In this document: one piece after another, positions 2,794 through 50,773 of the stretch
How the letters are laid out: each line of letters starts with the position of its first letter
Position numbering within the stretch: the stretch's first letter is position 1
Assembly: GCA_030425645.1 (NCBI GenBank)
Contig: JAUHZK010000006.1
Coordinates: 1 to 64,000, forward strand
Reading direction: 5' to 3'
From: Gammaproteobacteria bacterium
Lineage (GTDB): Bacteria; Pseudomonadota; Gammaproteobacteria; JAPPPA01
Length of the DNA stretch: 64,000 nucleotides
The notes under the pieces: model-generated
What the model saw: only the letters and a program-made list of their open reading frames with translations
What the model was told of the DNA's origin: nothing
Database searches by the model: none
Position numbers and translations under genes: made by a program

Positions 2794-2821
2794 GGCCGTT
2801 GGCCAAGTGATTTATAACGAT

Positions 2822-29283: not shown

Positions 29284-30576
29284 TTACAACTCTTTGTCTA
29301 AGGCCCGCATAGCCGAACGGAATTGACCGATGTTGTAGTTGCGCTCACTGGCGACACTGGCAAATAGCTCGCTGGCCTTGTCTTTATAAAGTGTAGGTTC
29401 TAATGCGCGTAATAACAGTTGGCTGGCAAATACGGCTTGCTCGGCAGCGTTATAGTCATCAAACAGACCGGTTTTGCCGCCATGCACTATGCGTTTTAGG
29501 AGGCTGCGCTGAGCGTCTTCAGCCAGTAGTTCTTGGCTCTGTGTGTTTTGCAATTGACGCAATAAGCCAATGCCGGCGCTGGCCTCGGCTTTAAGCTGCT
29601 CGATAGATCGCTGAGAGCTACTATGCAAGGCATGTAACCATTGCTTAAGTGGTTCGTGTTGCGCTGGTTGTAATGCCGACGTTAGCGCCCAGACCATCAT
29701 CAAGTGGCTATCCGCAATGCGCACGCTGCCAGGGGGCAGTGGTTTGGTGCTGCGGGGTTTCCAACGTACGTCGGTTAGCGGGTGGTGGCAGGCTTGGCAA
29801 TCAAATACAGCCAGTTCTGGAAATAGGTCGGCCGGATTTAGCCAGTCGGAGGCCAATAGCTCAAGCCAGCCGATGGCATTGGCGTAGACACCGACTATCC
29901 AGGTTTGAATGGGGTCGCTGTCGTTTTTACGCTGTTGGTAATCTTGGTCAAGCCGGAAGTGTGCGGGTTGCAGCTCAGTAAAGGTTTGTAGGTCGAAGCT
30001 TAGGCGCGGGTGGCCGGCACCCATGATGCGGTGGGTGGTGAACTTGTCTTCTGTGCCCATATGGCAAGAGAGGCAAAGCTCGGCGCGGGCCTTAGGTTCA
30101 TGGGTCGGGTACATGCCAGCAGCGATGTTTTCTTCAACGCTGCGGTCTTTATTGGTGTGGCTTTTGAGCCAGTTTTCAGCACCGCCATGGCAAGCCTCGC
30201 AACCAATGCCATCGTTGTAGGTAAATTTGCGGCCTTGGGCAGCGGGCTCAGGGTTGTCTAGGTGACAGTCCATGCAGACTTTGGCCTGATGGGCTGGCTC
30301 CGCTAAACCTAGGTTAAAGGCAATGCGTTGCGAGGCCTCGTTGCGCAGTGTTTTCATGCCTCTAGAGTGTGCGTCCTGACGTGACCAAATGACGTATTCA
30401 TTTTGCAGCACGCGGGTTTTCTCTAGGGCTTTAACCGAGCCATGACAGGTACTAGAGGCACAGGTGGCGACACCGAGATGCTTGTCATCAGCCTGTTGCG
30501 GTAATTCTGCTGCGGCGTAGGTTGCAAGTAGCGCTAAGCCGAACAGGGCAGTGAATTGTTTAACTAGGGCGCTCAT
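29284..30576 (-). CDS. Periplasmic pentaheme cytochrome c, c554-like
   Basis: A 430-aa secreted cytochrome with a Sec signal (ALFGLALLATYAAA). Heme sites are at C39 (CASSTCH, a CX4CH variant), C101 (CMDCH), C126 (CEACH), C168 (CLSCH) and C260 (CQACHH). Additional His residues suitable as distal ligands include HSRGM near 70 and HRIMGAGHPR near 182-189. The arrangement resembles cytochrome c554-family proteins. The helical C-terminal 150 residues carry no heme site and are of unknown role. Its ATG overlaps the stop of the decaheme-LVIVD gene by 4 bp, so the two are coupled. It is probably the soluble carrier of the conduit. Confidence 0.83.
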   Translation of the reverse strand: MSALVKQFTALFGLALLATYAAAELPQQADDKHLGVATCASSTCHGSVKALEKTRVLQNEYVIWSRQDAHSRGMKTLRNEASQRIAFNLGLAEPAHQAKVCMDCHLDNPEPAAQGRKFTYNDGIGCEACHGGAENWLKSHTNKDRSVEENIAAGMYPTHEPKARAELCLSCHMGTEDKFTTHRIMGAGHPRLSFDLQTFTELQPAHFRLDQDYQQRKNDSDPIQTWIVGVYANAIGWLELLASDWLNPADLFPELAVFDCQACHHPLTDVRWKPRSTKPLPPGSVRIADSHLMMVWALTSALQPAQHEPLKQWLHALHSSSQRSIEQLKAEASAGIGLLRQLQNTQSQELLAEDAQRSLLKRIVHGGKTGLFDDYNAAEQAVFASQLLLRALEPTLYKDKASELFASVASERNYNIGQFRSAMRALDKEL

Positions 30577-33500
30577 GGTGCGGTTTCCTCGCGCCGGCTG
30601 TCTAGCAGCCGTTTATTGACCTTAGACGTAGGTACAAACCATGGTTTTCCATTCTCGTCTAAGTAAAGCTTTTTCATTTCCTGTTCATTAAATGGTCGCG
30701 AACCTAAGCGTCCAAATACGGCGACTTGGCCGCCAGTTTCATCGGCACCGCGATCCCGCTCTAGACCTCGTGAGAGAGCTACAGCGGGGGCATCTGTTGG
30801 ATGCCAAGCAATCAACTGCGGTTGCGGTTTAGGGCTAAAGCCGTAGAAGTTGGGTTGTGTATCGGGTGCGGTGAGTTGCACCACTTTTAAGCCGTACTGG
30901 CCGTCAGCCACATAAGCAAACAAGCTGGCGTTGGTACTGGCAACAACAATGTCGCGGGCGTCTTTAATTTGACCGTCAGCGGTAAATTTTTCGATTAGTT
31001 TGGGCTTCTCTGGCTGAATGATATCGATTACGGCAATGCCTTCTTCACCGGCGGCGACATAGGCATAGGTGCGTGCCAAATGAATACGTTGCGCATCTTT
31101 TAGCGGCAGTGCTTGTTTGAGCACAAAGCTAGGTTGCTGTGGGTTAGTGACGTCCACGACCTGCAGACCGCGTTTGCTGCTAACAAACAGATAGCGGAAC
31201 TGAATAGCTGTGGCACGCGGATCTTCAATTCGTAATTCGGCCACAACCCTTGGCGCTAGCGGTTGATCAGCATTCACGATGACCACGGCATCATCGGTGG
31301 TGATGTAAAGATAGTAACCGGCGGTGGTGATATGTTTGGCGCCGTTAAGTACGCCATGCGGATTCCAAGTGAGTGCTCTTTCGAGGTGATTGTTGCGGAA
31401 TTCGCCGTCGGCCAAGGTGTTGATGTTGCTTAAAATTAGACCTTCTTCGGCATCGGTAATCAGGGCGTAGCTATAGATAGGGTGGAAGGGTTGCTCTTCG
31501 TTCTCCTCACGCATTAATTCGCCTTCATTACGCTGCGGCGCAATCGGCTGCGTGGTGGATAGCGATAGGCAGGTAGCGTTTTTGCTTTCTAACTGGGTGT
31601 CATGCCCGAGCTCGGAGAAGGGCGCCTTAATAATGCGTTGGCTTATGCCCTTGTTGGCAATGCTGGCAACGTCGTAAACATTCATGCCTTTGCTGCCTTC
31701 GGCGGCGAATAGGTATTCACCGCGTAGCTGTAGACAGCCAATACTGTCGCCTTTGTGGGTATGTGCGGTGGCTAGCTGCTGTTGGCGGTCTTGATGTTGC
31801 TGGTAGTAATCGGGGTAGGCGTATTTTTGTAAATAACTACCGATCACCGCCTGCGGTTCGTCCCACTCGGTGACTTGTACGGCACTAATGCCATCTTCGG
31901 TGCCGAGATAGGCGTGGTAACCCAAGAAGTCGTAGTAGTGGGTGCCGTGCATTAACAGCTGCGCCATGATGGCGTTGTTGTCGCCAGACTCCGATAAGTG
32001 GCAGTCGTCGCAGCGTTTGGTTTCTTCCTTACGTGCGGTATGCGGGAAGTGCGGGTTAAACGCCTGTGAGCTGTAACCACTAGCCGCGATGGGCGGCTGC
32101 TGCACGTAGATTTTTTCGCGGTTGGCATTAGTAGATGACAACACGAGTGCTGAAGTAGAGCGGATTGGCGCGACTTTATGGCCTTTTACGGTGCTGTGTT
32201 TGCCGAGCATAAAGGTTTGATCACGCACGACTTGAGGGTTGTAGGTGGCGTAGTTGCGGGATTCGCCGCCTTCATAGTGGTGGCGTTCGGTTTTCCAGTT
32301 GGCCTCAATCGGCAGGTGGCAGCCGCCGCATGACGTGGTCCAGCTGGTATGGCAGGTGTAACACTCCATTTCTTCGTTAGCATGAGCGAGGTCTTTGCCG
32401 ACATATTCCCAGCCCCAATCTAGGGTCTTGGTGTCGGTAGACATTAGCTTGGCTTTGGCGGCGTCGCGGTTGTATTGCTTATTACCCTTAGTGACGGTGT
32501 TTTTCACCAGAGACAATTCCCACTCTAGGCCGGGGGTGACCGCCGAGCGTTGAATCAGTTTTTTACCGACCCATTCAAAGCGTTTTTGGCCGTCTGGGTT
32601 GCGAATCAGGCTTAAGTCGGTGCTGCGGCCAGGGCCGGCGGGGCCAGAGGTTTTTAGGTTGGGGTATTCACTCACAGTACCGTGGCAGTCGATACAGCCA
32701 ATCTCTACCGCAGCGGCCACTTCTCCGTAAATATGGCCGTCAGAGTGGGCATCTTGGGCGTAGTGGCAGTCCACGCAGTGCATGCCAACGTCCAAGTGGA
32801 TGGAGGACATATGCACGCCTTTGTCGAATTTTTTCGGATCGTCATTGGCAACGATTTGATCGTCTTCGCTGAGCAGGTTGCCATCGCGGTCGCGTTTATA
32901 CACGGCACGGAAGTTCCAGCCGTGGCCGTGGTAATCGGCAAACTGGGTGTCGTTCAGCTCTGGATTGAGTTTGGAAACGTCTTTGAGGAACTCCAAGTCG
33001 GCCCATTTTCCGCGTGGGGCAGCGCCTTCTGGGTTGCGCTCATAGACCTCGTGCATTTCATGGGCATCGGGGTACTGTTGCTCTTTCGGCCACATCGCTG
33101 GTGCGTCTGATTCGTAATCCCACATGGTGTAACCGAGGTAGCTATTCACAAACATATTCGGTTGGTGCATATGGCAAACGATGCACTGGCTAGAAGGAAT
33201 GGCGCGGGTGAATTTATGTTGCAGCGGATGCCCTGGTTCGTCTTTGGGAATAGTGGGGTCAACGCTAATGCTTTTGCCTTCGTGGCCGTATTGGCCATAC
33301 CAAGCTGAGTTTTTCTGATCGCGGTCGTTGGCATAAACCACGTGGCAGCCGGCGCAGCCTGAGTGTCGATAGTCGCCGGGTTGATCATTGGTGCCCATAA
33401 ACCAGCTCATGGGGTCGTTAAGGCGGGTTTTGGTCATATTCAGCACCGGCACGGAGATACGCTGGCCGGTGCCGGGGCCGCGGTTAGACTGCTTGAAGTC

Positions 33501-34445
33501 TGGGCGGCCAGGCTCCTCTAGGCGTTGAATTAGGCCTAAACTGTTGGGGTTGCCGGTTTCTGGAAAGAGGTTGGTGAGGTTGCGACCACCACGTTCAAAA
33601 ACGCGGAAAATATCGCCGGGTTTTAGGGTTTCCCAAGCGGGTAGCGGGTTAATGCGGTCAACAATATTGTGTTTTCTGGCAATTTCTTCGGAAGGCGCAG
33701 GGCGGCCCTCGAGCGCAGCCGGTTGTCCGTCTGGCGTATAGGCCTCGCCAATCATGGGTCGCTTAAACGGCAAAATACCGTTGTTATAGGCCGCCGCGCC
33801 CCAGAACATGGCGGCGTTGCTCATAAGGCTGCGTTCTGAGGCTTTAATAATATCCAAATGGCAGGCGCCGCAGGCTTGGCGTGCTACGCGGTAGTCGGAC
33901 GGATTGATAAAGCGCACAAACTCCTGGCTTTCCTTGTTCAGTAAGGTGTAGGTGCGTTCTGGGTTGGCCGAAGACGGGTAATGCCAAGTTTCGGGGTAGA
34001 GCGGTTGCACATGGGCGGCATCAATCGCCGCCTGATAATCGGCTGGGTAATCCCGGATCAGTTCATTGCGGTGAATTTTTGCTTCGTTATCGTCGTGGTG
34101 TTTTTCGGTTGCATGGTCGGCCCGCAGTTGTGGCCGTAGCCGGCTAATGTCATCGAGACTGATGCCATCTGGCCGTTGTACTTGCGCATTGCCGCCGTGA
34201 CAGTCTGTGCAGCCGAGGTTAATACCGTCATTGCTGTGCATATTGTAGGCGTCTGACTGGCTATGGCAGGAGACGCAGCCTTCGCTTTTAGTGGCGGCTT
34301 CTGCTGGGCTTTGTTGCGCCGGTGCTGCTGGGTAATGCGGGTACTCAATCTCGCGCGGTTTTTCGTGGCCGCCCGCGGCAGCGGCGTTGCCAGCAGCACC
34401 GAGTAGGGCAATGAAGAGCAGGGATTTGGCGTAAGCAGTGCGCAT
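30573..34445 (-). CDS. Decaheme cytochrome c fused to an LVIVD beta-propeller
   Basis: A 1290-aa secreted protein (signal SLLFIALLGAAGNAAAA). Ten CXXCH sites occur between residue 57 and about 815: CVSCH, CTDCH, CGACH, CAGCH, CIVCH, CVDCH, CIDCH, CYTCH, CGGCH and CDDCH. From about 880 to 1240 the protein has repeated blade sequences such as YLYITTDDAVVIVNADQP, YLFVSSKRGLQVVDVTNPQQP, YAYVAAGEEGIAVIDIIQPEKP and FAYVADGQYGLKVVQL. These are LVIVD repeats forming a propeller, often seen in surface proteins. It lies 4 bp after the barrel gene. I infer an outer-membrane-associated or surface electron carrier with a docking or substrate-binding propeller. Confidence 0.85.
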   Translation of the reverse strand: MRTAYAKSLLFIALLGAAGNAAAAGGHEKPREIEYPHYPAAPAQQSPAEAATKSEGCVSCHSQSDAYNMHSNDGINLGCTDCHGGNAQVQRPDGISLDDISRLRPQLRADHATEKHHDDNEAKIHRNELIRDYPADYQAAIDAAHVQPLYPETWHYPSSANPERTYTLLNKESQEFVRFINPSDYRVARQACGACHLDIIKASERSLMSNAAMFWGAAAYNNGILPFKRPMIGEAYTPDGQPAALEGRPAPSEEIARKHNIVDRINPLPAWETLKPGDIFRVFERGGRNLTNLFPETGNPNSLGLIQRLEEPGRPDFKQSNRGPGTGQRISVPVLNMTKTRLNDPMSWFMGTNDQPGDYRHSGCAGCHVVYANDRDQKNSAWYGQYGHEGKSISVDPTIPKDEPGHPLQHKFTRAIPSSQCIVCHMHQPNMFVNSYLGYTMWDYESDAPAMWPKEQQYPDAHEMHEVYERNPEGAAPRGKWADLEFLKDVSKLNPELNDTQFADYHGHGWNFRAVYKRDRDGNLLSEDDQIVANDDPKKFDKGVHMSSIHLDVGMHCVDCHYAQDAHSDGHIYGEVAAAVEIGCIDCHGTVSEYPNLKTSGPAGPGRSTDLSLIRNPDGQKRFEWVGKKLIQRSAVTPGLEWELSLVKNTVTKGNKQYNRDAAKAKLMSTDTKTLDWGWEYVGKDLAHANEEMECYTCHTSWTTSCGGCHLPIEANWKTERHHYEGGESRNYATYNPQVVRDQTFMLGKHSTVKGHKVAPIRSTSALVLSSTNANREKIYVQQPPIAASGYSSQAFNPHFPHTARKEETKRCDDCHLSESGDNNAIMAQLLMHGTHYYDFLGYHAYLGTEDGISAVQVTEWDEPQAVIGSYLQKYAYPDYYQQHQDRQQQLATAHTHKGDSIGCLQLRGEYLFAAEGSKGMNVYDVASIANKGISQRIIKAPFSELGHDTQLESKNATCLSLSTTQPIAPQRNEGELMREENEEQPFHPIYSYALITDAEEGLILSNINTLADGEFRNNHLERALTWNPHGVLNGAKHITTAGYYLYITTDDAVVIVNADQPLAPRVVAELRIEDPRATAIQFRYLFVSSKRGLQVVDVTNPQQPSFVLKQALPLKDAQRIHLARTYAYVAAGEEGIAVIDIIQPEKPKLIEKFTADGQIKDARDIVVASTNASLFAYVADGQYGLKVVQLTAPDTQPNFYGFSPKPQPQLIAWHPTDAPAVALSRGLERDRGADETGGQVAVFGRLGSRPFNEQEMKKLYLDENGKPWFVPTSKVNKRLLDSRREETAP

Positions 34446-34449
34446 AGCG

Positions 34450-36201
34450 TTAATACATCAACGTCAGGTTGGCGAGGATGGAGTAAGGCGACTGGTCTGT
34501 GCCGTAGAGGTTTTCAAACCCTTCACCAGGAATTAAATAGGCCGCTGACAGTCGGCCAACAATGTTTTGTGTGGCGAAGGGCCGGTAGATGGCTGAAATG
34601 GATAGATCAAAACCAATCTCGGTTTCTATTTTGCCTTGGTTGCGGGCCGCTTCTAGCACGGCGGTTTCGGCAAACCAAAGGTGGTTGGCGTTAAAGCTTA
34701 GGCGCGTGCTAGGTGTTAGGTCTAAGTCAGCGCCCAGTCCCAGCAAGGTAATGCCGGGGTTGGTGAAGTTAGACTGGCCCTGTTCTTTAGATGATCGCAG
34801 GCTGTTAAGAATGCTATTGCGCCCCGATAGGGCGACGCGGCCGCCACCAATTAATGGCACGGTTTGCCTAATCCAATAGCTGGTATCAGCGCCAGCAAAA
34901 AGTGGGTTTTCAAATACAGCATCAAAGCCGCCAGCGTCGTTATCAAACGGATCGTCATCGCCTGAGGCGTGTAAAAATGAAAAGCGCCAGCGCACCCAGC
35001 TTTGATCGAAGCCCAGCTCGGCTGCAATAAAGTAAGCGCCGATGTCGCCGGGTTCGTCGATAAAGGTGCCGCGACTTTCATCGCCAATCGCGTAATAGGC
35101 CGAGAGCGTGATGTTCAAGCGCTCCCAGTGGCCGTCGCCGTTATAACCTAAGTAGGTGACGTCGTAATCGCGTGGCACTTCGATGCCGATAGAGGCGGGG
35201 CGGGCAATAAAGCCGTTAGTGTCATAGAGCACTTGGTCGCCTTCGCGGTTACGGTTGTGCAGCAACACAAACTGCGAAAAGTAGCCCAGTTTGGGCATGT
35301 CCTGCCAGTAGAGGTTGGCAACAAAAACATCGTCGTCTCGTAAGCCTTGTTCTACGTCATTAAGGCCACTGTTGGTGTCTTTTTCAATGCGTCGGAACCA
35401 GCCAAGGTTGTATTGGAATTTGTTGTTGTCGCGAATACCAAATAGCCGCACGCCGAACTGTTGGTCGTTGAATAAAAAACCTCTAAAGTCGGCGTTAAAT
35501 GGTTGAATTCCAATGCGAACTGAGTCGAAGTCGTAACGGTCGGAGACGTTGCGAATATGGTAATCAAATAGCGCTGCCTGAATGCCAACGTGGTTGTCGG
35601 TACGGTGCGTGCCGGCATTGGGATCAGCCCGCGTAACGGCCCGCTCGTTCGCGTCTAAGACGTTGTAGTTAATCACTGGCGTGAAGCGAAATTCGTAGTC
35701 AGGCGGGCGGAAGGTGGTGTCGCCTTTATAGAGTACCGTTTCCAAAATGAGGTTGCCCGCGGTGACCGTGGTGTCGCCCTCACCGATCAGATTTAAGGCA
35801 CCGCTGTCGTTGGTGGTGGCGTTGCCAACGGGGATAGGGAAATGCCGCGGCTCGTAGATAAGGTCGGCGATACCAATCAGGCTGAAAAACCAGTCATCAC
35901 CAAAGATCGGCCGGTCGCCTTTGAGCCAATTATTGTTGTTGTATGGGTCCCAGAGGTTTTCTGGGTAGCCGAGGGCGCTAACAATACGCCAGCGGTCGGG
36001 CACGGTGATGCCGTCGCTTAGGCGCTCAATTTGGCGTTTGTCGTCGTCACGGTGGTGGCAGCTGTCGTCGTCCCATTTTAATACGGCTTCACCAGGTCTA
36101 GATAAGGGTTGGCTTTGGTCGCATTTGCCGTCCGCAGCAAAGCTGCTGGTGCTGCTTAATAGTAGGGCAGCGATAAAGCCGGTTTGGAGCTTATTTGCCA
36201 T
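34450..36201 (-). CDS. Outer-membrane beta-barrel protein of the cytochrome operon
   Basis: A 583-aa protein with a clean signal peptide (MANKLQTGFIAALLLSSTSSFAAD). The chosen ATG at 36201 has GAGGAG about 10 nt upstream; two earlier in-frame ATGs are too close to that site. A Cys-containing N-terminal segment follows. The rest is a series of alternating amphipathic strands with aromatic belts (WVRWRFSFLHASGDDD, LNITLSAYYAIGDESRG), ending in SPYSILANLTLMY with a C-terminal aromatic, the usual barrel-insertion signal. It is enclosed by multiheme genes. I infer a porin sheath for an electron conduit by analogy with MtrB/PioB, although direct sequence similarity is not evident. Confidence 0.75.
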   Translation of the reverse strand: MANKLQTGFIAALLLSSTSSFAADGKCDQSQPLSRPGEAVLKWDDDSCHHRDDDKRQIERLSDGITVPDRWRIVSALGYPENLWDPYNNNNWLKGDRPIFGDDWFFSLIGIADLIYEPRHFPIPVGNATTNDSGALNLIGEGDTTVTAGNLILETVLYKGDTTFRPPDYEFRFTPVINYNVLDANERAVTRADPNAGTHRTDNHVGIQAALFDYHIRNVSDRYDFDSVRIGIQPFNADFRGFLFNDQQFGVRLFGIRDNNKFQYNLGWFRRIEKDTNSGLNDVEQGLRDDDVFVANLYWQDMPKLGYFSQFVLLHNRNREGDQVLYDTNGFIARPASIGIEVPRDYDVTYLGYNGDGHWERLNITLSAYYAIGDESRGTFIDEPGDIGAYFIAAELGFDQSWVRWRFSFLHASGDDDPFDNDAGGFDAVFENPLFAGADTSYWIRQTVPLIGGGRVALSGRNSILNSLRSSKEQGQSNFTNPGITLLGLGADLDLTPSTRLSFNANHLWFAETAVLEAARNQGKIETEIGFDLSISAIYRPFATQNIVGRLSAAYLIPGEGFENLYGTDQSPYSILANLTLMY

Positions 36202-38164
36202 TACAAACATTCTCCTCATTGCTATCTAGAAACGGTTTCTGTGGACAGTTGATATAACGTAGGCGGGTGCCTTGTGGCGTCAATTGGTCGGCGCGTATGG
36301 CTACCGGGGCGTTGTTTACGGTGCCTAGCGCTAGGCCAGCATTATGTACGCCAAGAAATGAAATCATATCGTCCTGATCAATGCCGTCGCCCGAGACGCC
36401 GATAGCGCCAATGAGGGTGCTGCCGCGATAGATGGGCACCGAGCCTGGGAAAATTTGGCTGCCGTTAGCGAGGCGGCGGAAGTCAGGGTCGGGCGGGCCG
36501 CCGAGTCCGGCGCAGCCTTTGGGTACGTCGGTACCGACTAATTCGGCTACAAAGGCAACGTGGCCAGCGATACCGTTATAGCTGATATCAAGCTGAAAGC
36601 CGGAAGAAAAAACGCTCCAGCGGTCCTTGCCGCCACTGAAGGGTTTGCTTAAGGGCCCATGTGGGTTGCCATTGATGCCATCCGGGTAGAACGGTCGAGA
36701 GAGGTTGCCGCCTGAGCGGTCAGCAAAGGCAAAGGCACCGTCCGCTAATGCCGTAGGGGAACCGAGAAAGTCCCGGACTGCGGTGATGTAGTCACTGAGT
36801 TTGATGGTTTGTCCGCTAGTGCCATCAGCGTTTAAGTAGGTGACATCGGCTAGCTTGTCCATGACATCGGCCGCTTTATCACTGGAAAAGAAGGCCGCCG
36901 TGCGTGCTTTTTGCAGCGACACGTCTAAACCGAAAACTGGCGCATCGCGGCCACGGACTTGGCCAAGTACGGTGCCGTCTACATCTACCACTGAAATCGA
37001 AACTCGAGCCGGTGTGCCTAGTGGCCGTCTAATTTGGCCGCGCGCACGATTGGCGATTAGTAATGCTTGTTTGAGCAACTCCGATACTTCAGTGGCGCTG
37101 AGGCCGCTGGCGCCGGCAATGGGCGGAAAGCGATTGCTGTCGCTGCCATCAACTGCTACAAAAGCGTCGGCATCGACCAAGGCTTGGTCATTGGGGTCGC
37201 CGGGGAAATCTCCCACAGTGGCGGCACGAATGCCTGAGGCGGGTGTGCCAAAGGCAGTGCCGGCCCTGACCACCGCGGGCTCAAAGTAGGATCTAACTTC
37301 AAGTAAGCTGCCCGAGGAAGGGGTAGCGGGAGCAGTGCTGGGGTCTCGAATGAGATCGGCTGCCGTGGCATCGGTAAATCGTAGCACCTTGCCGTCTACA
37401 GTAATGCGATCAGCCCGCCGCTCAATGGGTGCAGTAAAACCTTGGCTGCCGGCGAGGGCGATCGCTTCATCAAGATCGCTGTCAGTGTCTAACAGGTTTT
37501 TATCGATACCGTAAATACCGTCGGCTATCACACCAATGCCGCCAACCGGCACGCCGTCTTTATAAAGGGGAATGCCACCGGGGTCAGCGGCCAATCCCAG
37601 TGGGGAACGTTGGGGGCCTGTTTCACCCGCACGCTGCATAAAATCAGAGCAGGGAAGCTGCGAAAATTGCACGCCAAATAAAGGCCCGGCGGCTTGCCGT
37701 AGTTCCCCGGGATTAAAATGCTCCTGCACGATTTGGTTTGCCGTGCGGGTGGTGAAGGCATTGCCTTCGGTGCTGAGAAAACTCGCGGTAATGGCTTTAG
37801 CAATCGCGGCCATGCCACTAGGAATGAAGTTGAGACCTTCTAGGCCTTCGCCTTCGCGGGCGCCGGTATTGCTATCAAGTGGCTCGCTAGTGACGGTGGC
37901 GGTTTTGTCAGCGCCGCTCATGGCAAACACGCTCAACACATTGCCTACGCGGTCGGTAACAGCGATGGTGGCACTGGCGTTGCGTGCGAGGGCTTCTTCT
38001 ACGGCTTGCGACGTTACCCGATTGACATCGGCTTCAGTTAGGAAACTAGAGGCATTGGAGCAGGCGCCGGAGCAGCCACTTTGGTCACCGCCGCCTCCGC
38101 TGCTGCAGGCGCTAATGGCAGCGGTGATAAATAGAGCAAACAGGAGTTTGGCTTGTTTTGTCAT
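36191..38164 (-). CDS. Lipoprotein with two GlcG/HbpS heme-binding-type domains
   Basis: A 657-aa lipoprotein: the lipobox region ISACSSGGGG follows a short signal, then a Gly/Ser/Cys-rich linker. Two copies of the GlcG/HbpS fold are visible. The first has VTSQAVEEALARNASATIAVTDRVGNVLSVFAMSG, then PLYKDGVPVGGIGVIADGIYG. The second begins LLKQALLIANRARGQIR and SISVVDVDGTVLGQVRG, and ends in VPIYRGSTLIGAIGVSGDGIDQDDM. HbpS-type domains bind heme or act as small-molecule sensors. Its stop overlaps the barrel start by 11 bp, and its ATG overlaps the previous gene by 4 bp. It could cap or assemble the conduit at the membrane, but its job is unknown. Confidence 0.75.
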   Translation of the reverse strand: MTKQAKLLFALFITAAISACSSGGGGDQSGCSGACSNASSFLTEADVNRVTSQAVEEALARNASATIAVTDRVGNVLSVFAMSGADKTATVTSEPLDSNTGAREGEGLEGLNFIPSGMAAIAKAITASFLSTEGNAFTTRTANQIVQEHFNPGELRQAAGPLFGVQFSQLPCSDFMQRAGETGPQRSPLGLAADPGGIPLYKDGVPVGGIGVIADGIYGIDKNLLDTDSDLDEAIALAGSQGFTAPIERRADRITVDGKVLRFTDATAADLIRDPSTAPATPSSGSLLEVRSYFEPAVVRAGTAFGTPASGIRAATVGDFPGDPNDQALVDADAFVAVDGSDSNRFPPIAGASGLSATEVSELLKQALLIANRARGQIRRPLGTPARVSISVVDVDGTVLGQVRGRDAPVFGLDVSLQKARTAAFFSSDKAADVMDKLADVTYLNADGTSGQTIKLSDYITAVRDFLGSPTALADGAFAFADRSGGNLSRPFYPDGINGNPHGPLSKPFSGGKDRWSVFSSGFQLDISYNGIAGHVAFVAELVGTDVPKGCAGLGGPPDPDFRRLANGSQIFPGSVPIYRGSTLIGAIGVSGDGIDQDDMISFLGVHNAGLALGTVNNAPVAIRADQLTPQGTRLRYINCPQKPFLDSNEENVCNGK

Positions 38165-39828
38165 TGCGCCTCTCCGGTCGTGTTCATCCAGCCGTGTTCG
38201 GGTAAGTGGTAGCTATGGCAATCAATGCACTGGGAGTCGATCAAGCTGCTGTCGCCGGGGTTGCCGTGGCAAGTTAAGCAGTTTTCTCGGCTTGGGATGA
38301 GCACATCTTGCGAGTGCTCAGACGTTTGCGCGCCGCTATGGCAATCCGTACAAGCCATTGATTGATGGCCAGCATGGTCGAATTCGGCGTCATCTATCCA
38401 GCGCCTGTTAACGTTCACTGGGCGGATATTCCAGGCACTGATAAGGTCTCCGCTCTCTAGCGCAGCGGTGTTACGACTGACTTCATGACAGGTAACACAG
38501 CCGCGTTTTTCGATAAGTTCGCTGGCTAGTTCAATTAACGTTAACGCTTGTTGCTGCTGTCGTTTATTGGGGCCGGGCCGTTGCAGCGACGGTTCTTTAG
38601 CGGCAGCAGCAGTGCGGCCATTTAGGCTTGATTTAAGCTCGGTTAGACCTTTTAGGCCAGCGATGTCACGTAGTGTGGCGCCGATGTCGCCATGACGGAC
38701 GAATAGGTCGGGGTTGTCGGCGTCAAAGTCGAGCCGGTGGCAGCTATCGCAATGTGCTTCCATATTGATGTCTTGCATGCCGCGGCCGCCCGGCTCGGGT
38801 TGATGGCAGTCGTTGCATTGCATGACTTTAGGGTTACCGTCCTCACCATCTAGTCCCTCGGGGGCTAAATGTACGTCGTGTGGGAATATTAAGCCGCTTT
38901 GTTCCTGTGGTTGCTGCGCCGCATTCTGTTGTGCCCATTGCCATTCAAGCGAGTCTTGTTGCCAATGCGGCGTCAGTAAGGTGATTTCAGGATGGCTCAG
39001 GCGCCAGTCATGGATATTGGCCTGTTTGCTGTTGCCATTGCTGAAGTGTTGAATGTCTTCATGGCAATGTACACACAGCTGTTTGTCGCCGGTAATCAAC
39101 TCGGTGCGACCGTTGTGTTCCTTGTGACAACTTTGGCAGTCGGCATTCTGTAACTCATCAATGGCAAAGCGTTGCGGGTCAGCATGTGTCGCCACTTCTT
39201 GGTGGCAAGTCATGCAGGCGCTGTTTTCGACTTGTGCAAAAGGCTGTTGATGGCATTGGCTGCAGTCGTCGGCAAAAAACTGGTGGGCTGGGTGAAACTC
39301 GCCGCTATTCCAGAGGCTGTGATTCGGTAGTAGCGGAATATCGGTATCGTCGGCTAAGACGTAGCGTTGCAGCAGCGGTGCCGCTAGAAAGATCAGGCTG
39401 ATGGCGAGCAACAGCCCCCATGACCAGCGTCGCTTCGAAAACCCACTGTCGGCCAGTCGCGTTTGAAAGGGCTTATATGCCGGCCTTGCGGTGGTTTCGT
39501 CGACATCGACGTTTACCGTAAGGCCATCGGCCGTTAGTTGAACCCTGAAGTGATGATTGCCAATTTGAAATTGGTCATCGTTTTCTAGCCAAGCTTGCTG
39601 AACCGTTTTGCCGTTTAAGCTAACGCCTTGTTCGCTGCGGGCGACTAACTGTAGGCGATTGTTTTGGTACTCAAGGCTGGCATGGCGAAGGCGCACGTTT
39701 GGCCAGTCGAGCTGGATGTCTTGTTCATTACTAGCACCGATATCTACGTGGTCTTGTGACAGCTTGCGATGGCCGTCGGCGACTTCGCCGTTGCTGGTGA
39801 TCCGTGTTCTGATGATGTGAATGGTCAC
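38161..39828 (-). CDS. FHA-like domain / membrane anchor / decaheme cytochrome c
   Basis: A 555-aa three-part protein starting at GTG. Residues 1-105 resemble a cytoplasmic FHA fold (VDIGASNEQDIQLDWPNVRLRHASLEY, then GVSLNGKTV and NDDQFQIGNHHFRVQL). The Arg and Ser that contact phosphothreonine in GR and SxxH are replaced, so binding may be lost. A single helix near 134-155 (WGLLLAISLIFLAAPLLQRYVL) follows. The periplasmic part has ten CXXCH sites: CSQCH, CMTCH, CQSCH, CVHCH, CNDCH, CDSCH, CVTCH, CTDCH, CLTCH and CIDCH. It starts 4 bp after the cytochrome b gene. I infer that it takes electrons from that protein in the inner membrane. Confidence 0.8.
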   Translation of the reverse strand: MTIHIIRTRITSNGEVADGHRKLSQDHVDIGASNEQDIQLDWPNVRLRHASLEYQNNRLQLVARSEQGVSLNGKTVQQAWLENDDQFQIGNHHFRVQLTADGLTVNVDVDETTARPAYKPFQTRLADSGFSKRRWSWGLLLAISLIFLAAPLLQRYVLADDTDIPLLPNHSLWNSGEFHPAHQFFADDCSQCHQQPFAQVENSACMTCHQEVATHADPQRFAIDELQNADCQSCHKEHNGRTELITGDKQLCVHCHEDIQHFSNGNSKQANIHDWRLSHPEITLLTPHWQQDSLEWQWAQQNAAQQPQEQSGLIFPHDVHLAPEGLDGEDGNPKVMQCNDCHQPEPGGRGMQDINMEAHCDSCHRLDFDADNPDLFVRHGDIGATLRDIAGLKGLTELKSSLNGRTAAAAKEPSLQRPGPNKRQQQQALTLIELASELIEKRGCVTCHEVSRNTAALESGDLISAWNIRPVNVNRRWIDDAEFDHAGHQSMACTDCHSGAQTSEHSQDVLIPSRENCLTCHGNPGDSSLIDSQCIDCHSYHLPEHGWMNTTGEAQ

Positions 39829-39832
39829 GGCA

Positions 39833-40696
39833 TTACCAATATAGAAATACCACTACGACATGCGCAGTTAGGGCGGTTAATAGGGCAATGGTGGCCGGCA
39901 CATGGAGCATGAGCCAGATGTCTAACATGGCGCGAATGCGGATGTCTTTGCGAATGCGTTGCAGTAGCTGGCTGCGGCGGTTGAGTGCTTCAATAATATT
40001 GCGAAGGTTGGCGTTGTGCTCGGGGTCGTTGTCGCCTAGTAAAGCGGCAAAATGAGCAATAACGGTTCTTTGGTTAGGGTTTGACTGGCGTTTGTCATTG
40101 ATAACCACGGATGAAAAATCTTTTTTGCTGAGCTGTCGCCAGGCGTTGCCGCCGAGGCTGGTGCCTTCTAGGCTGCTGTCGACTGCCGCTCTAAGGTCTT
40201 CGTCGAGCATTTGGCTGCAGCTCACGACTTGGCGATCGGCATCGTCAAGTTGGGCCAGTAATTCTGCCTGGCTACGGTTGTCGCGGTTGCTGCTTAATGG
40301 TCCTGGATAGCGGACATAGACAACAATGCCGAAAAAACCGCTGCTAATGACTAAGCACATCAGTACATAGGTCAGGGTGTGTAGATTCCACGCGAACTGG
40401 AAGCCAGTGTGCAAGGTGCCGATAAAAAGCAGTCCCATGCCCAAGTAGATATGGGCCGACAACCAACCCTGTACCGTGCTTGATGTTGAGTGGTAATTGC
40501 GTTTACGGACGCCAAACCATGCCAGCCAAACGATCAGCAAGGCAGCAATAGTGCCGAGCGTGTACCCCAACCACGTGCCGCCATTGGCGACAGGTTGTGG
40601 TGAGTGCCAAGCGTAAGCAGCAATAGATGCAGTGGAAAGTAGCGTTGCTATTTTGAGCCAGCGAGCTTTTTTGTAGCGTAGCGTGGATTGGTGCAT
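39833..40696 (-). CDS. Di-heme cytochrome b-like membrane protein
   Basis: A 287-aa protein with five predicted membrane helices (about 13-30, 43-62, 81-100, 107-127 and 263-286). Two helices each carry a His pair spaced 14 residues apart: H82/H96 and H265/H279. This is the pattern of a bundle holding two bis-His b hemes, one near each membrane face. A soluble loop of about 130 residues (ELLAQLDDADRQVVSCSQML and following) separates the two helices. It heads the six-gene cytochrome operon. I infer a quinol-oxidising entry point that passes electrons to the FHA-decaheme protein. No known b-cytochrome family is a clear match. Confidence 0.68.
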   Translation of the reverse strand: MHQSTLRYKKARWLKIATLLSTASIAAYAWHSPQPVANGGTWLGYTLGTIAALLIVWLAWFGVRKRNYHSTSSTVQGWLSAHIYLGMGLLFIGTLHTGFQFAWNLHTLTYVLMCLVISSGFFGIVVYVRYPGPLSSNRDNRSQAELLAQLDDADRQVVSCSQMLDEDLRAAVDSSLEGTSLGGNAWRQLSKKDFSSVVINDKRQSNPNQRTVIAHFAALLGDNDPEHNANLRNIIEALNRRSQLLQRIRKDIRIRAMLDIWLMLHVPATIALLTALTAHVVVVFLYW

Positions 40697-40739: not shown

Positions 40740-40850
40740 ATGAGTATCGCCAATGTGGCATATGCTTTCAAACAAAAAATGGTACTGTTATTCAATATCG
40801 ATTCGTTTTTTACTAGGCATTTATGCGACTCAAACACGCCCGCGGCTTGA
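40740..40850 (+). CDS. Candidate 36-aa leader peptide of the cyclase gene
   Basis: ATG at 40740, with AGGAG at 40729-40733 and a 6-nt spacer, opens a 36-codon frame. It overlaps the first 28 bp of the cyclase gene in another frame and ends at TGA 40848-40850. This ribosome site is far better than the one before the cyclase ATG (AGG only). Translation of the leader could feed ribosomes to the cyclase start. The peptide (MSIANVAYAFKQKMVLLFNI and on) has no known family. Confidence 0.3.
   Translation: MSIANVAYAFKQKMVLLFNIDSFFTRHLCDSNTPAA
40743..40771 (-). promoter_or_regulatory. Candidate promoter of the cytochrome operon
   Basis: On the minus strand, TTGAAA (40771-40766) and GATACT (40748-40743) are separated by 17 bp, 47 bp before the cytochrome b ATG. 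The -35 box matches 5 of 6 consensus bases and the -10 box 4 of 6. It lies in the 126-bp gap shared with the divergent cyclase gene. Confidence 0.4.
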
Positions 40851-43063
40851 TCATTCGGCTCACCATCGCTATCGCGATGACAGCGGTGTTTGTTATGCAC
40901 GTTAGAGGCGATTGGCATTTGGCTTTGGTTGCCCAAATGGAACGCAACTTATACGACGCCCGTTTACGTTTAGCCTTACCAGATGAGCGCCCTAGCTCGG
41001 TGGTGATTGTTGATATTGACGAAAAGAGCATTGCTGAATTAGGCCACTGGCCGTGGCCAAGAGATGTATTGGCGCAGTTGTTAGATAAGTTGTTCGACGA
41101 ATATGGCGTCCGTGTCGCTGGTTTTGACGTGGTCTTCGCGGAGCCTTATGAGGCTTCGGCATTGAGTTTGTTAGATGACTTAGAAGGCCAGCTTAGTGAC
41201 TTGAACGCTGAAGACCGCCAGTTAATTGCGGCGCAAAGGCAGCGTTGGAATACCGATGAAACTTTTGCGGCCTCATTGATTGGGCGTGACGTTGTGCTTG
41301 GTTATGTCTTTAAGGACCGTTTAACCGCAGATGAGCCGGTGGGGGCGGGGCGCTTGCCAGAGCCGCTGTTCACTAAGGCACAAGTAGCGCGTTTAGATTT
41401 GGCGATGGCCGAGGCGCAGGGCTATGTTGCGCCCTACGAAATGCACACGTTTGCGAGTGAGTACGCCGGATTTTTTAGTAACCCCTATGTCGATAGCGAC
41501 GGTATTTTTCGTCGCGTGCCATTAATGCAGCAATTTGAAGGCGATGTTTATAGTTCGCTTTCGTTGTCAGTGGCGAGTGCCGCCTTGGGCGGAGTGATGC
41601 CCAGTTTTGTTTTTGCCGACCCTGAGAATGCTGCCCTCGACGCCGTTAACCTAGAAGGTTTGCAGCTCGGGGATAGGTTTTTGCCTGTGGATGGTCACCT
41701 GAATGCGCTCGTGCCGTATCAAGGTCCAGCTGGCAGTTTTCCCTATGTCTCTGTGGTTGACGTGCTGTCTGGGCAGGCTGATATAGAAACCTTATTCGAC
41801 AGCATCGTGTTGGTTGGCACCAGCGCCCCGGGTTTGTTGGATTTGCGTGCCACGCCTGTTGGTGCACGCTTCGTCGGGGTCGAGATCCACGCTAATTTAG
41901 TGCATGGCATTCTCAATGGCGGATTAAAGAGCAGCCCGCACTATATGCAGGGGGTTGAGCTGGTGGCTTTGTTGATGGTTGCAGTGCTTGTAACTCTGTT
42001 GAGCTTGCTGTCTGCCGGGCTAGGGATTGCTGGTTTGGTGGCCTTGGTGGTGGCGGTTTTTTATGCCGGTTTATACGGCTGGCAACATCATGATTTAAAT
42101 ATTCCGGTGGCTTCCTCCATCGCCTTGGCGACCAGTCTGTTTTTGCTGCAATTTGCCTACTCTTACGCCGTTGAGTCGCGCAAGAAACGGCACTTGTCGA
42201 AGGTGTTTGGCCAATACATTCCGGAAGAACTGGTGGCTGATTTAGATGCCTCTGAAGAAGAAGTCAGTTTGGAGGGTGAGAGCCGTGAAATGTCGGTCTT
42301 GTTCTCTGACGTGCGCAGCTTTACTAGTATTTCAGAAGGCTTAGATCCAATTGAGCTCACTCAGCTCATGAATGAGTTTCTAACGCCGATTACCCGCGTT
42401 ATTCATGAGAACCGGGGCACCATCGACAAATACATGGGCGATGCGGTAATGGCGTTCTGGGGCGCGCCTTTGCACGATGATCGGCATGCTTACCACAGCG
42501 TTACCGCAGGCCTAAAAATGATTGAGGCGCTAGATGCGTTGCAGCCGCATTTCCGCAGCCGTGGTTGGCCTGAAATTAAGGTTGGTGTTGGTGCCAATAC
42601 CGGAGCCATGAATGTCGGCAATATGGGCTCTGAGTTCCGCATGGCATATACCGTGTTGGGCGACACGGTTAACCTTGGCTCGCGGCTAGAAGGTTTAACC
42701 AAACAGTACGGTGTGCAGTTTATTGTGAGTGAGTCGACGGCCTTATCCGCGCCGGAATATCTTTACCGTGAACTCGATGCCGTTAGGGTTAAGGGCAAGC
42801 AGGAACCGATACGTATATTTGAGCCATTAATGGCGGTTGAGCAGGCTAGTGAAGCCGACATCGAAATGATCGGCTACTGGAATCAGGTACTAGAGTTTTA
42901 TCGTTTTCAGCAGTGGTCGGAAGCAAAGCAGGCATTGCAATCCTTGTTGGCTGATGACCCGCAACGGATGATTTATCAGACTTATCTGCAGCGCATAGCG
43001 GCGTTTGAGCAATCGCCACCACCGCCTGACTGGGATGGTGTTTTCACTCATACCAGCAAATAG
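40823..43063 (+). CDS. CHASE2-domain class III adenylate/guanylate cyclase
   Basis: A 746-aa membrane cyclase. After a first helix (LTIAIAMTAVFVMHVRG) comes a periplasmic CHASE2 sensor (about 35-365) with the family motif SSVVIVDIDEKSIAELGHWPWPRDVLAQLL and, near its end, VLVGTSAPGLLDLRATPVG. Three closely spaced helices follow (about 374-450), then the catalytic domain. Metal Asp residues are in VLFSDVRSFTSIS and in the DKYMGDAVMAFWGAP segment. MAYTVLGDTVNLGSRLEGL holds the transition-state Asn and Arg. The Lys of DKYMGD favours ATP. It is divergent from the cytochrome operon and followed by TPR-barrel and FecR genes, suggesting a sensory unit producing cAMP for the nearby cyclic-nucleotide-binding oxidoreductase. 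Confidence 0.88.
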   Translation: MRLKHARGLIIRLTIAIAMTAVFVMHVRGDWHLALVAQMERNLYDARLRLALPDERPSSVVIVDIDEKSIAELGHWPWPRDVLAQLLDKLFDEYGVRVAGFDVVFAEPYEASALSLLDDLEGQLSDLNAEDRQLIAAQRQRWNTDETFAASLIGRDVVLGYVFKDRLTADEPVGAGRLPEPLFTKAQVARLDLAMAEAQGYVAPYEMHTFASEYAGFFSNPYVDSDGIFRRVPLMQQFEGDVYSSLSLSVASAALGGVMPSFVFADPENAALDAVNLEGLQLGDRFLPVDGHLNALVPYQGPAGSFPYVSVVDVLSGQADIETLFDSIVLVGTSAPGLLDLRATPVGARFVGVEIHANLVHGILNGGLKSSPHYMQGVELVALLMVAVLVTLLSLLSAGLGIAGLVALVVAVFYAGLYGWQHHDLNIPVASSIALATSLFLLQFAYSYAVESRKKRHLSKVFGQYIPEELVADLDASEEEVSLEGESREMSVLFSDVRSFTSISEGLDPIELTQLMNEFLTPITRVIHENRGTIDKYMGDAVMAFWGAPLHDDRHAYHSVTAGLKMIEALDALQPHFRSRGWPEIKVGVGANTGAMNVGNMGSEFRMAYTVLGDTVNLGSRLEGLTKQYGVQFIVSESTALSAPEYLYRELDAVRVKGKQEPIRIFEPLMAVEQASEADIEMIGYWNQVLEFYRFQQWSEAKQALQSLLADDPQRMIYQTYLQRIAAFEQSPPPPDWDGVFTHTSK

Positions 43064-46949: not shown

Positions 46950-49361
46950 TTATTCTTCGAGATTGGCCACTAGCTCAGTCAGCTGTTCGGGGCCTAGTCG
47001 CATGGCCGCGCCGGTGGGGCAGGAGCGCACGCAGGCGGGGCCGCCTTTTTGGCCAACACACTGGTCGCATTTGACGGCCTTCTTAACCACGTCTTTAGGT
47101 GATTTGAAGCTGGGATCTTGGCCTGGTCCGGGCCCTTTGCCAAACAGCAACCATTGCCATAAAGATGGTTTTTCCGGCGGTTTTGCTGCCAGTTGAATGA
47201 CGCCGTAGGGACAGTTGCGGACACAGTTGCCACAACCGATACAGCTATCTTTGATATAAACCTCACCGTTGTCTGCACGACTAATGGCGTCCGGTGGGCA
47301 TTCCTTCATGCAATGCGGGTTTTCGCAATGGCGGCATGAGGTTGGTAAATGCAAACAGGCGAAACTGACGCCAGCTTCTCGGTCGAGCCGAGAAACGCCA
47401 TCGTGGGTGTCGGCGCAGGCTTTTTCGCAGTTGTCGCAACCGACGCATAGGGTTTCGTCAATCACGAGAGCATTCGTCGCTTCGCCGAGTCCTTGCTCCA
47501 TCATAAATGACAGTACGGCACCATTGCGGGGCTGAGCCTCCATGCGGGTATCGTTCTGGATGCGGGTTTGCAAGGTTTGTCTGATTTCCTTGCGAATATT
47601 CGGCTCTAAGGCGAGTAGGGCATTGAAGGCTTCGCTATTCAGAGCAATGGTTTCTGAGGCAACGTTGGCGGTGATGGTGGCGGGTTGGTCACTGCCGGAG
47701 AGTACGGCGGCTTCGCCGATATATTGGCCGGCAGATAGGTAACCAATGACTGTTTCTTGCTGTTGTAGCTGGCGCGAAATACGCACTGAGCCTTTGCGAA
47801 TAAGGTGGAAACTGACATCGCTATCACCTTCGCGCATGATTTGGTCGCCCGGTTTATAGCTGTTCAGCGTCGCTGCTGCGGCGATAGGTTGGAGCTCGGG
47901 AATGCTTCGGTCTGGCGCGAAGCGTGTTTGGATGGTGCGGATGATGAAGGTTTCGTCGAGCACACGTTTCACGGTGTCGTCCGAAGCAATCAACTTGTTC
48001 ATCGTGCGTCGTGGGGTTTCAATCAGGACGCAATCCTCACCAGCGACAATGGTGGCGGTGCGCCGGCGGCCTGAGAGTAAGCCCATTTCGCCAAAAAACG
48101 CGCCCTGAGGGATGGTGATGCGGCGCTTACCGGCTTGGTCGAGTAATACATCAACACTGCCGTTGGCGATGGTATAGAAGGTGTTGCTGTAGTCGCCTTG
48201 TTTAAAGACGATATCGTCGCTTTTGGGGTGGTGAATATTGCTGTCGAGAATAACTTCTCGGAACATCAAGGCATTAACGTCAGTAAATACCCGTAGCCTT
48301 TCTTGGAACAGCGCCAGTGTGGCATCAACGTCGAGCGCAAATGGTAAATCGGCTAGCTTTTCTTCCAGCAGGGGGTGGTCGGCTGGTTTGATGTCATTGC
48401 CGAGTATGTACTCTACAACTTCATAACCTTGGTTCATGGCTTGCTTAATGAGCGGGTAGCCGCCGAGAGCGCCAATAACATAGAGTCCGCTCACATTGCT
48501 TTCGTACTGCGCTGTCAGCTCGGGTAGTGCGCCGGGGCTGTCGTTGGGGAATTCAATGCCGCAGCTTTCAACGAAAGGTCGTGGGGGTATGGCACCCAGT
48601 CGGGCAATGATGCGATCGGCTGCAATGGTGAGTTCGCCAGTGTCCGTTTTTAAGCTCACATTCATCGGCGTATCGGCCTCTGGCGTGAGTGCAATGCTGC
48701 CGACATTGGCGCTATAAACAATGTTTAGCAGGCCGTCTTCTGCCGACTTAAGAATAAGATCAATATTGCCTTGTTTGGCGCGAGCGAACTCGTCCCTGCG
48801 GTTGACGATGTAAACCTGATTACGGTTGGCTGGATTGGCTAGGCCAACGGCATTTTCAATCGCGGCGTCACCGGCGCCGAGCACCACAATGGTTTCGTCT
48901 TTGTATTCGTTGGGATCGTCTAGCTGGTATTGAACGCGGTCAAAGTCGTCATTTTCAACGCCTACGCGGCGAGGGTTACCCTGCAAGCCGATGCCCATAA
49001 TGATGGTTTCGGCTTGAATGGTTTTGCCGTTCTTGAGGCCAATATTGAAATCGCCTTTAGCACCGCTGATTTCGGTAACCTCGGCGTTATATTCGATATT
49101 AACCTTGAGTTCGCTGAGGCTGTTTTCCCAAGAGCTGAGAATGTCTTCTCGTTTACCAACGTCAAATTCGAAAGGGCTGCGGAGCGGTAAAATGCCGGGT
49201 TCTGCCATCACATGTTTACCTTTTTGGTACTTCTGGATGGTGTCGGCGTGTTTCGCTTTGGCTTCTAACAGGATGTGTTTAACACCGAGTTCGGCGGCGT
49301 GCCCGGCGGCACTGAGCCCGCCCGGCCCAGAGCCGATAATTGCGATTTGATATTTACTCAT
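46950..49361 (-). CDS. FAD/NAD(P) oxidoreductase with two cyclic-nucleotide-binding domains and a four-cluster ferredoxin module
   Basis: An 803-aa protein with three modules. Residues 1-320 form a thioredoxin-reductase-like flavoprotein (IAIIGSGPGGLSAAGHAAELG for FAD, VVLGAGDAAIENA for NAD(P)H, GLYVIGALGGYPLIKQAMNQG near the end) without the CxxC disulfide. About 365-620 holds two cNMP-binding domains. The first phosphate cassette FFGEMGLLSGRRRTAT keeps the Glu and Arg; the second, YIGEAAVLSGSDQPAT, has lost the Arg. About 640-790 is a DmsB/NrfC-like module with four Cys groups (CVGCDNCEKAC, CRHCENPHCMKEC, CIGCGNCVRNCP, CDQC...CVRSCP). It is cytoplasmic. I infer a cAMP-gated enzyme passing NAD(P)H electrons toward the membrane. 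Confidence 0.85.
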   Translation of the reverse strand: MSKYQIAIIGSGPGGLSAAGHAAELGVKHILLEAKAKHADTIQKYQKGKHVMAEPGILPLRSPFEFDVGKREDILSSWENSLSELKVNIEYNAEVTEISGAKGDFNIGLKNGKTIQAETIIMGIGLQGNPRRVGVENDDFDRVQYQLDDPNEYKDETIVVLGAGDAAIENAVGLANPANRNQVYIVNRRDEFARAKQGNIDLILKSAEDGLLNIVYSANVGSIALTPEADTPMNVSLKTDTGELTIAADRIIARLGAIPPRPFVESCGIEFPNDSPGALPELTAQYESNVSGLYVIGALGGYPLIKQAMNQGYEVVEYILGNDIKPADHPLLEEKLADLPFALDVDATLALFQERLRVFTDVNALMFREVILDSNIHHPKSDDIVFKQGDYSNTFYTIANGSVDVLLDQAGKRRITIPQGAFFGEMGLLSGRRRTATIVAGEDCVLIETPRRTMNKLIASDDTVKRVLDETFIIRTIQTRFAPDRSIPELQPIAAAATLNSYKPGDQIMREGDSDVSFHLIRKGSVRISRQLQQQETVIGYLSAGQYIGEAAVLSGSDQPATITANVASETIALNSEAFNALLALEPNIRKEIRQTLQTRIQNDTRMEAQPRNGAVLSFMMEQGLGEATNALVIDETLCVGCDNCEKACADTHDGVSRLDREAGVSFACLHLPTSCRHCENPHCMKECPPDAISRADNGEVYIKDSCIGCGNCVRNCPYGVIQLAAKPPEKPSLWQWLLFGKGPGPGQDPSFKSPKDVVKKAVKCDQCVGQKGGPACVRSCPTGAAMRLGPEQLTELVANLEE

Positions 49362-49408: not shown

Positions 49409-50773
49409 TTATATCACACCATAAGCGAGCATGGCGTCAGCAACCTTGGTAAATCCGGCGATATTGGCGCCGTTTAGGTAGTTGACGTAGCTGCCTTCGT
49501 CACCGTGTTCAACGCATTTACCATGAATGGCTTGCATGATCTCGCGTAGGCGTGCGTCTAAGTCATCTCGTGTCCAGCTCAAGCGCATACTGTTTTGGGT
49601 CATCTCAAGCCCGGAAACGGCAACCCCGCCAGCGTTGGCAGCTTTAGATGGCGCATAAAGTATCTTGGCATCAATATACTTCTGAATCCCCTCGGGTACG
49701 GTCGGCATATTGGCGCCTTCGGAAACCGCTATGCAGCCGTTGTCGATTAGGGTTTGGGCTTCATCAGCGGAGATCTCATTTTGAGTCGCACAGGGCAGGG
49801 CAACGTCGCAGGGTAAACCCCAAGGGCGTTGTCCCTCATGGTAGCTAGCATTCGGGTATTGCTTGAGGTACTCGTTAATACGAACGCGTTTAACGTTCTT
49901 CAGTTCTTGTACGTGAGCTAGGCGCTCGGCATCAATGCCGTCAGGGTCGTGAATAAAGCCACCAGAATCCGACAGCGTTAATACTTTGCCGCCGAGTTGG
50001 GTAAATTTCTCGGCGGCGTATTGGGCAACGTTACCGGAACCGGAAACGCAGGCGGTTTTGCCCTCAATGTCGTGGCCGGCGTGTTTGAGCATGTCTTGCA
50101 GCATATAAACCGCACCATAGCCTGTGGCCTCGGTGCGGATGAGCGAGCCGCCAAAGGCCAAGCCCTTACCTGTGAGTACGCCAGTGAATTCATTAGTAAG
50201 ACGTTTGTGTTGGCCAAACATATAAGAAACCTCACGCGCACCGACGCCAATGTCGCCGGCCGGTACGTCGGTTTGGTGGCCGATATGGCGCGAGAGTTCG
50301 GTCATAAACGCTTGGCAAAAGCTCATCACTTCACGGTCTGATTTGCCCTTGGGGTTAAAGTCAGAGCCGCCTTTGCCAGAGCCCATTGGCAGGCCGGTAA
50401 GGCTGTTTTTAAATGTCTGTTCGAAGGCTAGGAATTTGAATGTCGAGAGGGTGACATCTTTATGGAAACGTAAGCCGCCCTTGTAGGGGCCGATGGCGTT
50501 GTTATGTTGCACCCGATAGCCACGGTTTACCCGAACGTTACCGGCGTCGTCTTGCCAGCACACTCGAAAGATAATAATGCGATCTGGTTCTGTCAGGCGC
50601 TCTAGGATTTTGGCTTCTTGATAAATGGGCTTGTCGATAATGTAGGGGATGATCGTTTGCGCGACTTCTCCTACTGCCTGATGGTATTCGTGCTCGCCTG
50701 GATTGCGACGAGCTAGGCCTTCCATAAACTGCTGATAATGCTCGGCGGCCTTGCCGGTGAGTGCTGTGGTCAT
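49409..50773 (-). CDS. gdhA: NADP-specific glutamate dehydrogenase
   Basis: A 454-aa hexameric-type enzyme catalysing reductive amination of 2-oxoglutarate in the cytoplasm. Substrate-binding motifs include YRVQHNNAIGPYKGGLRFH and LPMGSGKGGSDFNPKGKSD with the catalytic Lys. The Rossmann domain shows ACVSGSGNVAQYAAEKFTQLGG, and the C-terminal part NAGGVAVSGLEMTQNSMRLSW is standard. The length and sequence suit the NADP-dependent family for ammonia assimilation. It lies 30 bp after the DUF3307 gene and 47 bp before the oxidoreductase on the same strand, so a shared message is possible. Confidence 0.96.
   Translation of the reverse strand: MTTALTGKAAEHYQQFMEGLARRNPGEHEYHQAVGEVAQTIIPYIIDKPIYQEAKILERLTEPDRIIIFRVCWQDDAGNVRVNRGYRVQHNNAIGPYKGGLRFHKDVTLSTFKFLAFEQTFKNSLTGLPMGSGKGGSDFNPKGKSDREVMSFCQAFMTELSRHIGHQTDVPAGDIGVGAREVSYMFGQHKRLTNEFTGVLTGKGLAFGGSLIRTEATGYGAVYMLQDMLKHAGHDIEGKTACVSGSGNVAQYAAEKFTQLGGKVLTLSDSGGFIHDPDGIDAERLAHVQELKNVKRVRINEYLKQYPNASYHEGQRPWGLPCDVALPCATQNEISADEAQTLIDNGCIAVSEGANMPTVPEGIQKYIDAKILYAPSKAANAGGVAVSGLEMTQNSMRLSWTRDDLDARLREIMQAIHGKCVEHGDEGSYVNYLNGANIAGFTKVADAMLAYGVI

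Follow-up and report, generated by a model that had tools for sequence, protein, structure and literature searches.

Electron conduits of the MtrCAB and PioAB type are multiheme systems built from an inner-membrane donor, a periplasmic multiheme cytochrome, and an outer-membrane barrel; MtrB, the sheath of a decaheme, has 26 strands. To our knowledge, known conduits are all quinol-fed. In Geobacter sulfurreducens, genes for a porin, a 5-heme cytochrome, a large multiheme protein (ExtM), a 10-heme cytochrome, and an inner-membrane cytochrome b are clustered in extHIJKLMNOPQS, together with those for a Rieske protein, a rhodanese, and the selenocysteine protein ExtKL (PMC5877670).

The locus described here lies in a 64,000-nucleotide stretch of gammaproteobacterial DNA (the window) and shares the general plan of MtrCAB and PioAB. 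It appears to differ from them in its barrel, which is modeled with approximately 18 strands and an AlgE-like fold rather than as a 26-strand sheath, and in its input, which appears to be of the NAD(P)H rather than the quinol type. The original prediction had set the locus apart from the Mtr and Pio systems, and the three protein-family models tested agree. With the DmsE-family model that covers MtrA and PioA (TIGR03508, cut-off 192 bits), the two decahemes scored 18.0 and 21.6 bits; with the MtrC/OmcA model (TIGR03507, cut-off 209 bits), the FHA protein scored 16 bits and the LVIVD protein gave no score; the barrel had no NCBIfam match at E 0.1, including the MtrB/PioB model (TIGR03509). A search of the genome with TIGR03509, conducted without a positive control, gave no match. 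MtrB and PioB did not appear in the lists of fold matches to the barrel, although such absence by itself excludes nothing.

Judged by the ExtM model and by gene content, the closest known system is Geobacter ext, with which the locus has its logic in common but whose ExtM model it does not satisfy. The LVIVD protein scored 48.3 bits against the ExtM equivalog (NF040943, cut-off 800 bits), with only residues 547-816, in its heme region, matched, and the cut-off was not reached anywhere in the whole genome either. Neither a Rieske protein nor a rhodanese is found among the seven core genes; conversely, a flavin-cNMP-FeS protein, FHA, GlcG, and LVIVD are absent from the ext description in the available part of PMC5877670. 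The prediction that the system is undescribed also held: in the open-licence PMC literature, where absence is no proof of novelty, we found no published description and no paper joining LVIVD, GlcG, FHA, or an alginate-export porin with multiheme cytochromes. GlcG, heme-binding, and alginate proteins go unmentioned in a paper that treats the MtrCAB system of Halieaceae.

Organization and conservation of the locus

Six minus-strand open reading frames had been predicted at 29284-40696, and all were confirmed, along with the 4-bp gaps (39829-39832 and 34446-34449) and the overlaps of 4, 11, and 4 bp that join them. They encode a 287-aa cytochrome b (39833..40696); a protein with an FHA domain, a single transmembrane segment, and a decaheme c part (38161..39828); a 657-aa lipoprotein with two GlcG/HbpS domains and four conserved Cys (36191..38164); a 583-aa predicted outer-membrane barrel with no hemes (34450..36201); a 1290-aa decaheme c protein with a C-terminal LVIVD β-propeller and a signal peptide read from its sequence (30573..34445); and a 430-aa pentaheme, cytochrome c554-like protein (29284..30576). 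The expected 25 c-heme sites are present: 10 CxxCH motifs in the FHA protein, 10 sites in the LVIVD protein, and 5 in the pentaheme protein (four CxxCH and one CX4CH, CASSTCH). Pfam recognized FHA, cytochrome c3/c7, HbpS/GlcG, LVIVD, and cytochrome c554 domains in the block, and gave no match for the window's own barrel and cytochrome b.

The predicted extent proved too short. In a relative (G010), cytochrome b is preceded by a gene whose product combines a pyridine-nucleotide/FAD part, two cNMP-binding domains, and a ferredoxin part, and by this means a seventh core gene was recognized in the window at 46950..49361 on the minus strand (803 aa). In other genomes this flavin gene opens the operon, with a median distance of 2 bp to the gene for cytochrome b. 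In the window, three plus-strand genes stand between it and the six-gene block: a CHASE2 sensor-class III nucleotide cyclase gene divergent from the block (40823..43063), a gene for a TPR/SlipAM-like protein (43166-45061), and a gene whose product is, by its own sequence, of the FecR type (45048-46922). A gene for a GdhA-family glutamate dehydrogenase (49409..50773, minus strand) adjoins the flavin gene and is a recurrent neighbor of the block. At the other end of the block, a minus-strand gene (28418-29218) codes for a 266-aa protein with weak desaturase/ferritin-like similarity, which is 90-91% identical beside all three copies in the genus.

Scanning of genome contigs with the LVIVD-decaheme alignment yielded at least 593 confirmed loci in Alpha-, Beta-, and Gammaproteobacteria, 80 of which were retained for analysis. 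Carriers include Halieaceae, Steroidobacter, Lysobacterales, Limnobacter, and Sphingobium, hosts that we take to be largely aerobic heterotrophs. The genes follow one another in the order flavin protein, cytochrome b, FHA-decaheme, GlcG lipoprotein, barrel, LVIVD-decaheme, and usually pentaheme, often followed by genes for PP2C and a double-FHA protein. In 49 of the 56 loci for which 9 kb or more of upstream sequence was available, all six genes from the flavin protein to the LVIVD-decaheme were on the same strand, and a pentaheme gene lay directly downstream in 41 of 73. Heme-motif counts were invariant among homologues (59/59, 84/84, and 53/53). We conclude that the genes form one conserved operon, as had been proposed; chance or mis-called open reading frames are ruled out by the invariant heme counts and the synteny.

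The further expectation that all six predicted genes co-occur as a block was correct for most loci, but some genomes have the inner-membrane trio alone. Among 398 genomes drawn from the phylum, the LVIVD protein was present in 11; the barrel was present in the same 11 and in G187, whose contig stops just after it; and the flavin protein was present in these 12 genomes and in G037, G068, and G186. In G068 and G186, the inner-membrane trio is present and no barrel was found, and the two modules are thus separable.

Both Sphingobium herbicidovorans and Sphingopyxis indica also carry the system on conjugative plasmids, where its products are annotated just as hypothetical, heme-binding, cyclic nucleotide-binding, or multiheme proteins. 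On the Sphingobium plasmid (pMSHV; locus L136), genes for a two-partner-secretion transporter and a large hypothetical exoprotein (378-6656 and 1-290) immediately precede the cytochrome genes. Near the G010 block lies a gene for a SulP-family transporter whose N-terminal part is an FHA domain (L023, 3621-5705), with homologues in L050, L058, and L071.

A second, diverged copy of the entire region is found in the genome of the window (G000) on the 38-kb contig C14 (L115, L020). It contains glutamate dehydrogenase, the flavin protein, FecR, TPR, the CHASE2 cyclase, the six-gene block, and a ferritin-like protein, as well as an ECF sigma/anti-sigma pair that is absent from the window copy. A simple recent duplication was rejected as its origin: the LVIVD protein of C14 is nearer to that of G001 than to that of the window (90 against 84%), and the greater nearness of C14 proteins to G001 points to an older divergence or another origin of C14. 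In this second copy and in G001, a lipoprotein-like open reading frame of approximately 2250-2450 aa lies beside the flavin gene (L115, 8833-15588; L117, 4467-11822); none was seen at the corresponding place in the window.

Probable electron entry and the proteins of the envelope

The flavin domain resembles thioredoxin reductase, YpdA, and ferredoxin-NADP reductases, and contains no CxxC. A thioredoxin or bacillithiol disulfide reductase was ruled out, given the lack of CxxC and a GSGPGG motif in place of GxGPCG (YpdA). The 16 invariant Cys of the protein, which are its only conserved ones, are all in its FeS part and fit four [4Fe-4S] clusters. In two genomes, the flavin-FeS protein and cytochrome b are fused in one open reading frame (G068, 1118 aa, L142 7850-11206; G186, 1123 aa, L143 3052-6423), and the G068 fusion lacks none of the 16 FeS Cys or the five cytochrome b His. 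Of all the findings, this natural fusion speaks most strongly for electron transfer between the two proteins. In cytochrome b itself, the His pairs 82/96 and 265/279, each 14 residues apart, would hold two hemes b; His106 is a fifth invariant His beyond the four expected heme ligands. NOX/FRD enzymes likewise move electrons from a flavin through a membrane by way of two b hemes, with His pairs 14 residues apart, but here a TrxR-like flavin domain is combined with ferredoxin clusters, and the chain would continue into c-hemes. A Ferric_reduct domain (PF01794) was matched weakly in only 2 of 27 cytochrome b homologues, with a best E of 0.11, and PDB homologues were found neither for cytochrome b nor for the LVIVD protein.

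The part of the original prediction that had electrons travel from quinol to the surface was not borne out, since the entry protein is of the pyridine-nucleotide/FAD/four-[4Fe-4S] kind and adjoins or is fused to cytochrome b. The electron donor is likely NAD(P)H, acting via flavin, FeS clusters, and heme b. Two features suggest NADPH instead of NADH: an NRR..R-like, though variable, motif, and the repeated presence of the GdhA-family glutamate dehydrogenase, which neighbors the block in 11 loci and is inside or directly beside it in L128 and Sphingopyxis indica, where it is NADP-specific by model and by annotation, respectively.

In the FHA-decaheme, a single hydrophobic segment separates the FHA domain from the hemes in all 56 homologues. 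Exactly 10 fully invariant His outside the motifs accompany its 10 hemes, and 5 fully invariant extra His accompany the 5 hemes of the pentaheme protein; these counts would be expected of bis-His wires. The LVIVD-decaheme has 13 such His for its 10 hemes, which makes a catalytic heme or active site possible. Its heme region was modeled poorly (mean pLDDT 51), and the propeller, the sole usable part, matched generic propellers in Foldseek.

The 583-aa protein, predicted to be an outer-membrane barrel, was modeled as one, with a mean pLDDT of 84 and approximately 18 long strands. Its best match was AlgE (Foldseek 1e-17; Z 28.6, rmsd 2.8, 361 residues aligned, 14-15% identity), whose 18-strand fold it shares but not its context, which here is that of multiheme cytochromes. 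The Alginate_exp model (PF13372) matched 8 of 49 barrel homologues, the window protein not among them, with a best value of 1.1e-6. Sixteen Arg in the strands are near-invariant. The GlcG protein has the lipobox ISAC in the window, and candidate lipoboxes are present in 42 of 63 homologues. The proposed set of wires over the inner membrane, periplasm, and outer membrane is supported. With 18 strands against the 26 of MtrB, a heme wire through the barrel may not fit in the modeled structure; the alternatives are a new mode of docking of the LVIVD protein on the barrel and a barrel that acts as a substrate channel.

The neighboring genes suggest that the system is under strict control. The CHASE2 cyclase is the likely source of a cyclic nucleotide, and genes for cNMP phosphodiesterase-like proteins adjoin the alphaproteobacterial copies. 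PP2C and FHA genes are present in many loci, and a protein that is kinase-like by its sequence in four; the second G000 copy and G001 have an ECF sigma/anti-sigma pair. A promoter scan was uninformative (4 sites versus 9.1 expected).

Proposed electron path and its alternatives

We propose that the seven proteins form a chain for electron export that starts at cytoplasmic NAD(P)H and reaches the outer membrane, and put the probability of this reading at about one half. Its basis is gene content, conservation, cofactor motifs, the flavin-FeS/cytochrome b fusion, and the predicted barrel fold. Points against it are the small strand number of the barrel, the poorly modeled LVIVD heme region, the three opposite-strand genes that part the flavin gene from the block in the window, and the occurrence of the inner-membrane trio apart from the outer-membrane module in G068 and G186. 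NAD(P)H, the presumed donor, would reduce the FAD of the soluble flavin-cNMP-ferredoxin protein, and electrons would pass through four [4Fe-4S] clusters to the inner-membrane diheme cytochrome b. From there they would probably move to the FHA-anchored decaheme at the periplasmic face, then to the soluble pentaheme, and on to the LVIVD-decaheme, which, with the AlgE-like barrel and the GlcG lipoprotein, may reduce some acceptor at or beyond the surface. Cyclic nucleotides, presumably made by the nearby cyclase and degraded by phosphodiesterases such as those encoded elsewhere, may gate the flavin protein, and phosphorylation involving FHA, PP2C, and kinase proteins would control the inner-membrane step. 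Two points favor outward flow: the strong reducing power of NAD(P)H, and the lack of any evident energy-coupling part in the conserved set. A fuller formulation, in which aerobic proteobacteria bypass the quinone pool by trans-envelope export through a cNMP-gated flavin-ferredoxin protein, a b-cytochrome, 25 c-hemes, and an AlgE-type complex under FHA/PP2C control, is put forward more tentatively.

The same NAD(P)H-fed inner-membrane chain could instead serve a periplasmic reductase, with the barrel admitting an anionic soluble substrate and the LVIVD-decaheme reducing it, for detoxification or respiration, as has been proposed for ExtI with selenite and tellurite in Geobacter. We consider this less likely, though in its favor are a porin- or exporter-like barrel of 18 strands with near-invariant Arg in them, a possible active site in the LVIVD-decaheme, and the partial match of that protein to ExtM of the selenite/tellurite operon. 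According to PMC5877670, an extI mutant reduces less selenite and tellurite and keeps Fe(III) citrate reduction. However, the full ExtM model was far from matched (48 of 800 bits), no substrate-specific enzyme family was recognized, and a lipoprotein and a barrel encoded with cytochromes also fit an outer-membrane complex.

Much less probable are two further readings. Electrons could flow inward, from a metal, a cathode, or a partner cell to NAD(P)+, given that multiheme wires are reversible and that one homologue comes from a metagenome-assembled genome named Biocath_Gamma_022; yet electrons would have to move uphill from bis-His c-hemes to NAD(P)+, no energy-coupling subunit was seen in the conserved set, and the named hosts are presumably aerobic heterotrophs for the most part. 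Alternatively, cytochrome b could be a quinol oxidase feeding a conduit to the surface, with the flavin protein merely a regulator. Weak similarity to cytochrome b561 (PF01292) in 26 of 27 cytochrome b homologues and the apparently regulatory cNMP domains are in line with this, but the two proteins occur as a fusion and all 16 FeS ligands are retained, which implies that electrons pass from one to the other.

If NAD(P)H-fed export does take place, many supposedly plain aerobic heterotrophs would own a dedicated, signal-controlled route for NAD(P)H electrons to the outer membrane. A direct feed from NAD(P)H under second-messenger control would represent a different bioenergetic design, with a bearing on metal reduction at the surface, on extracellular superoxide, and on redox overflow.
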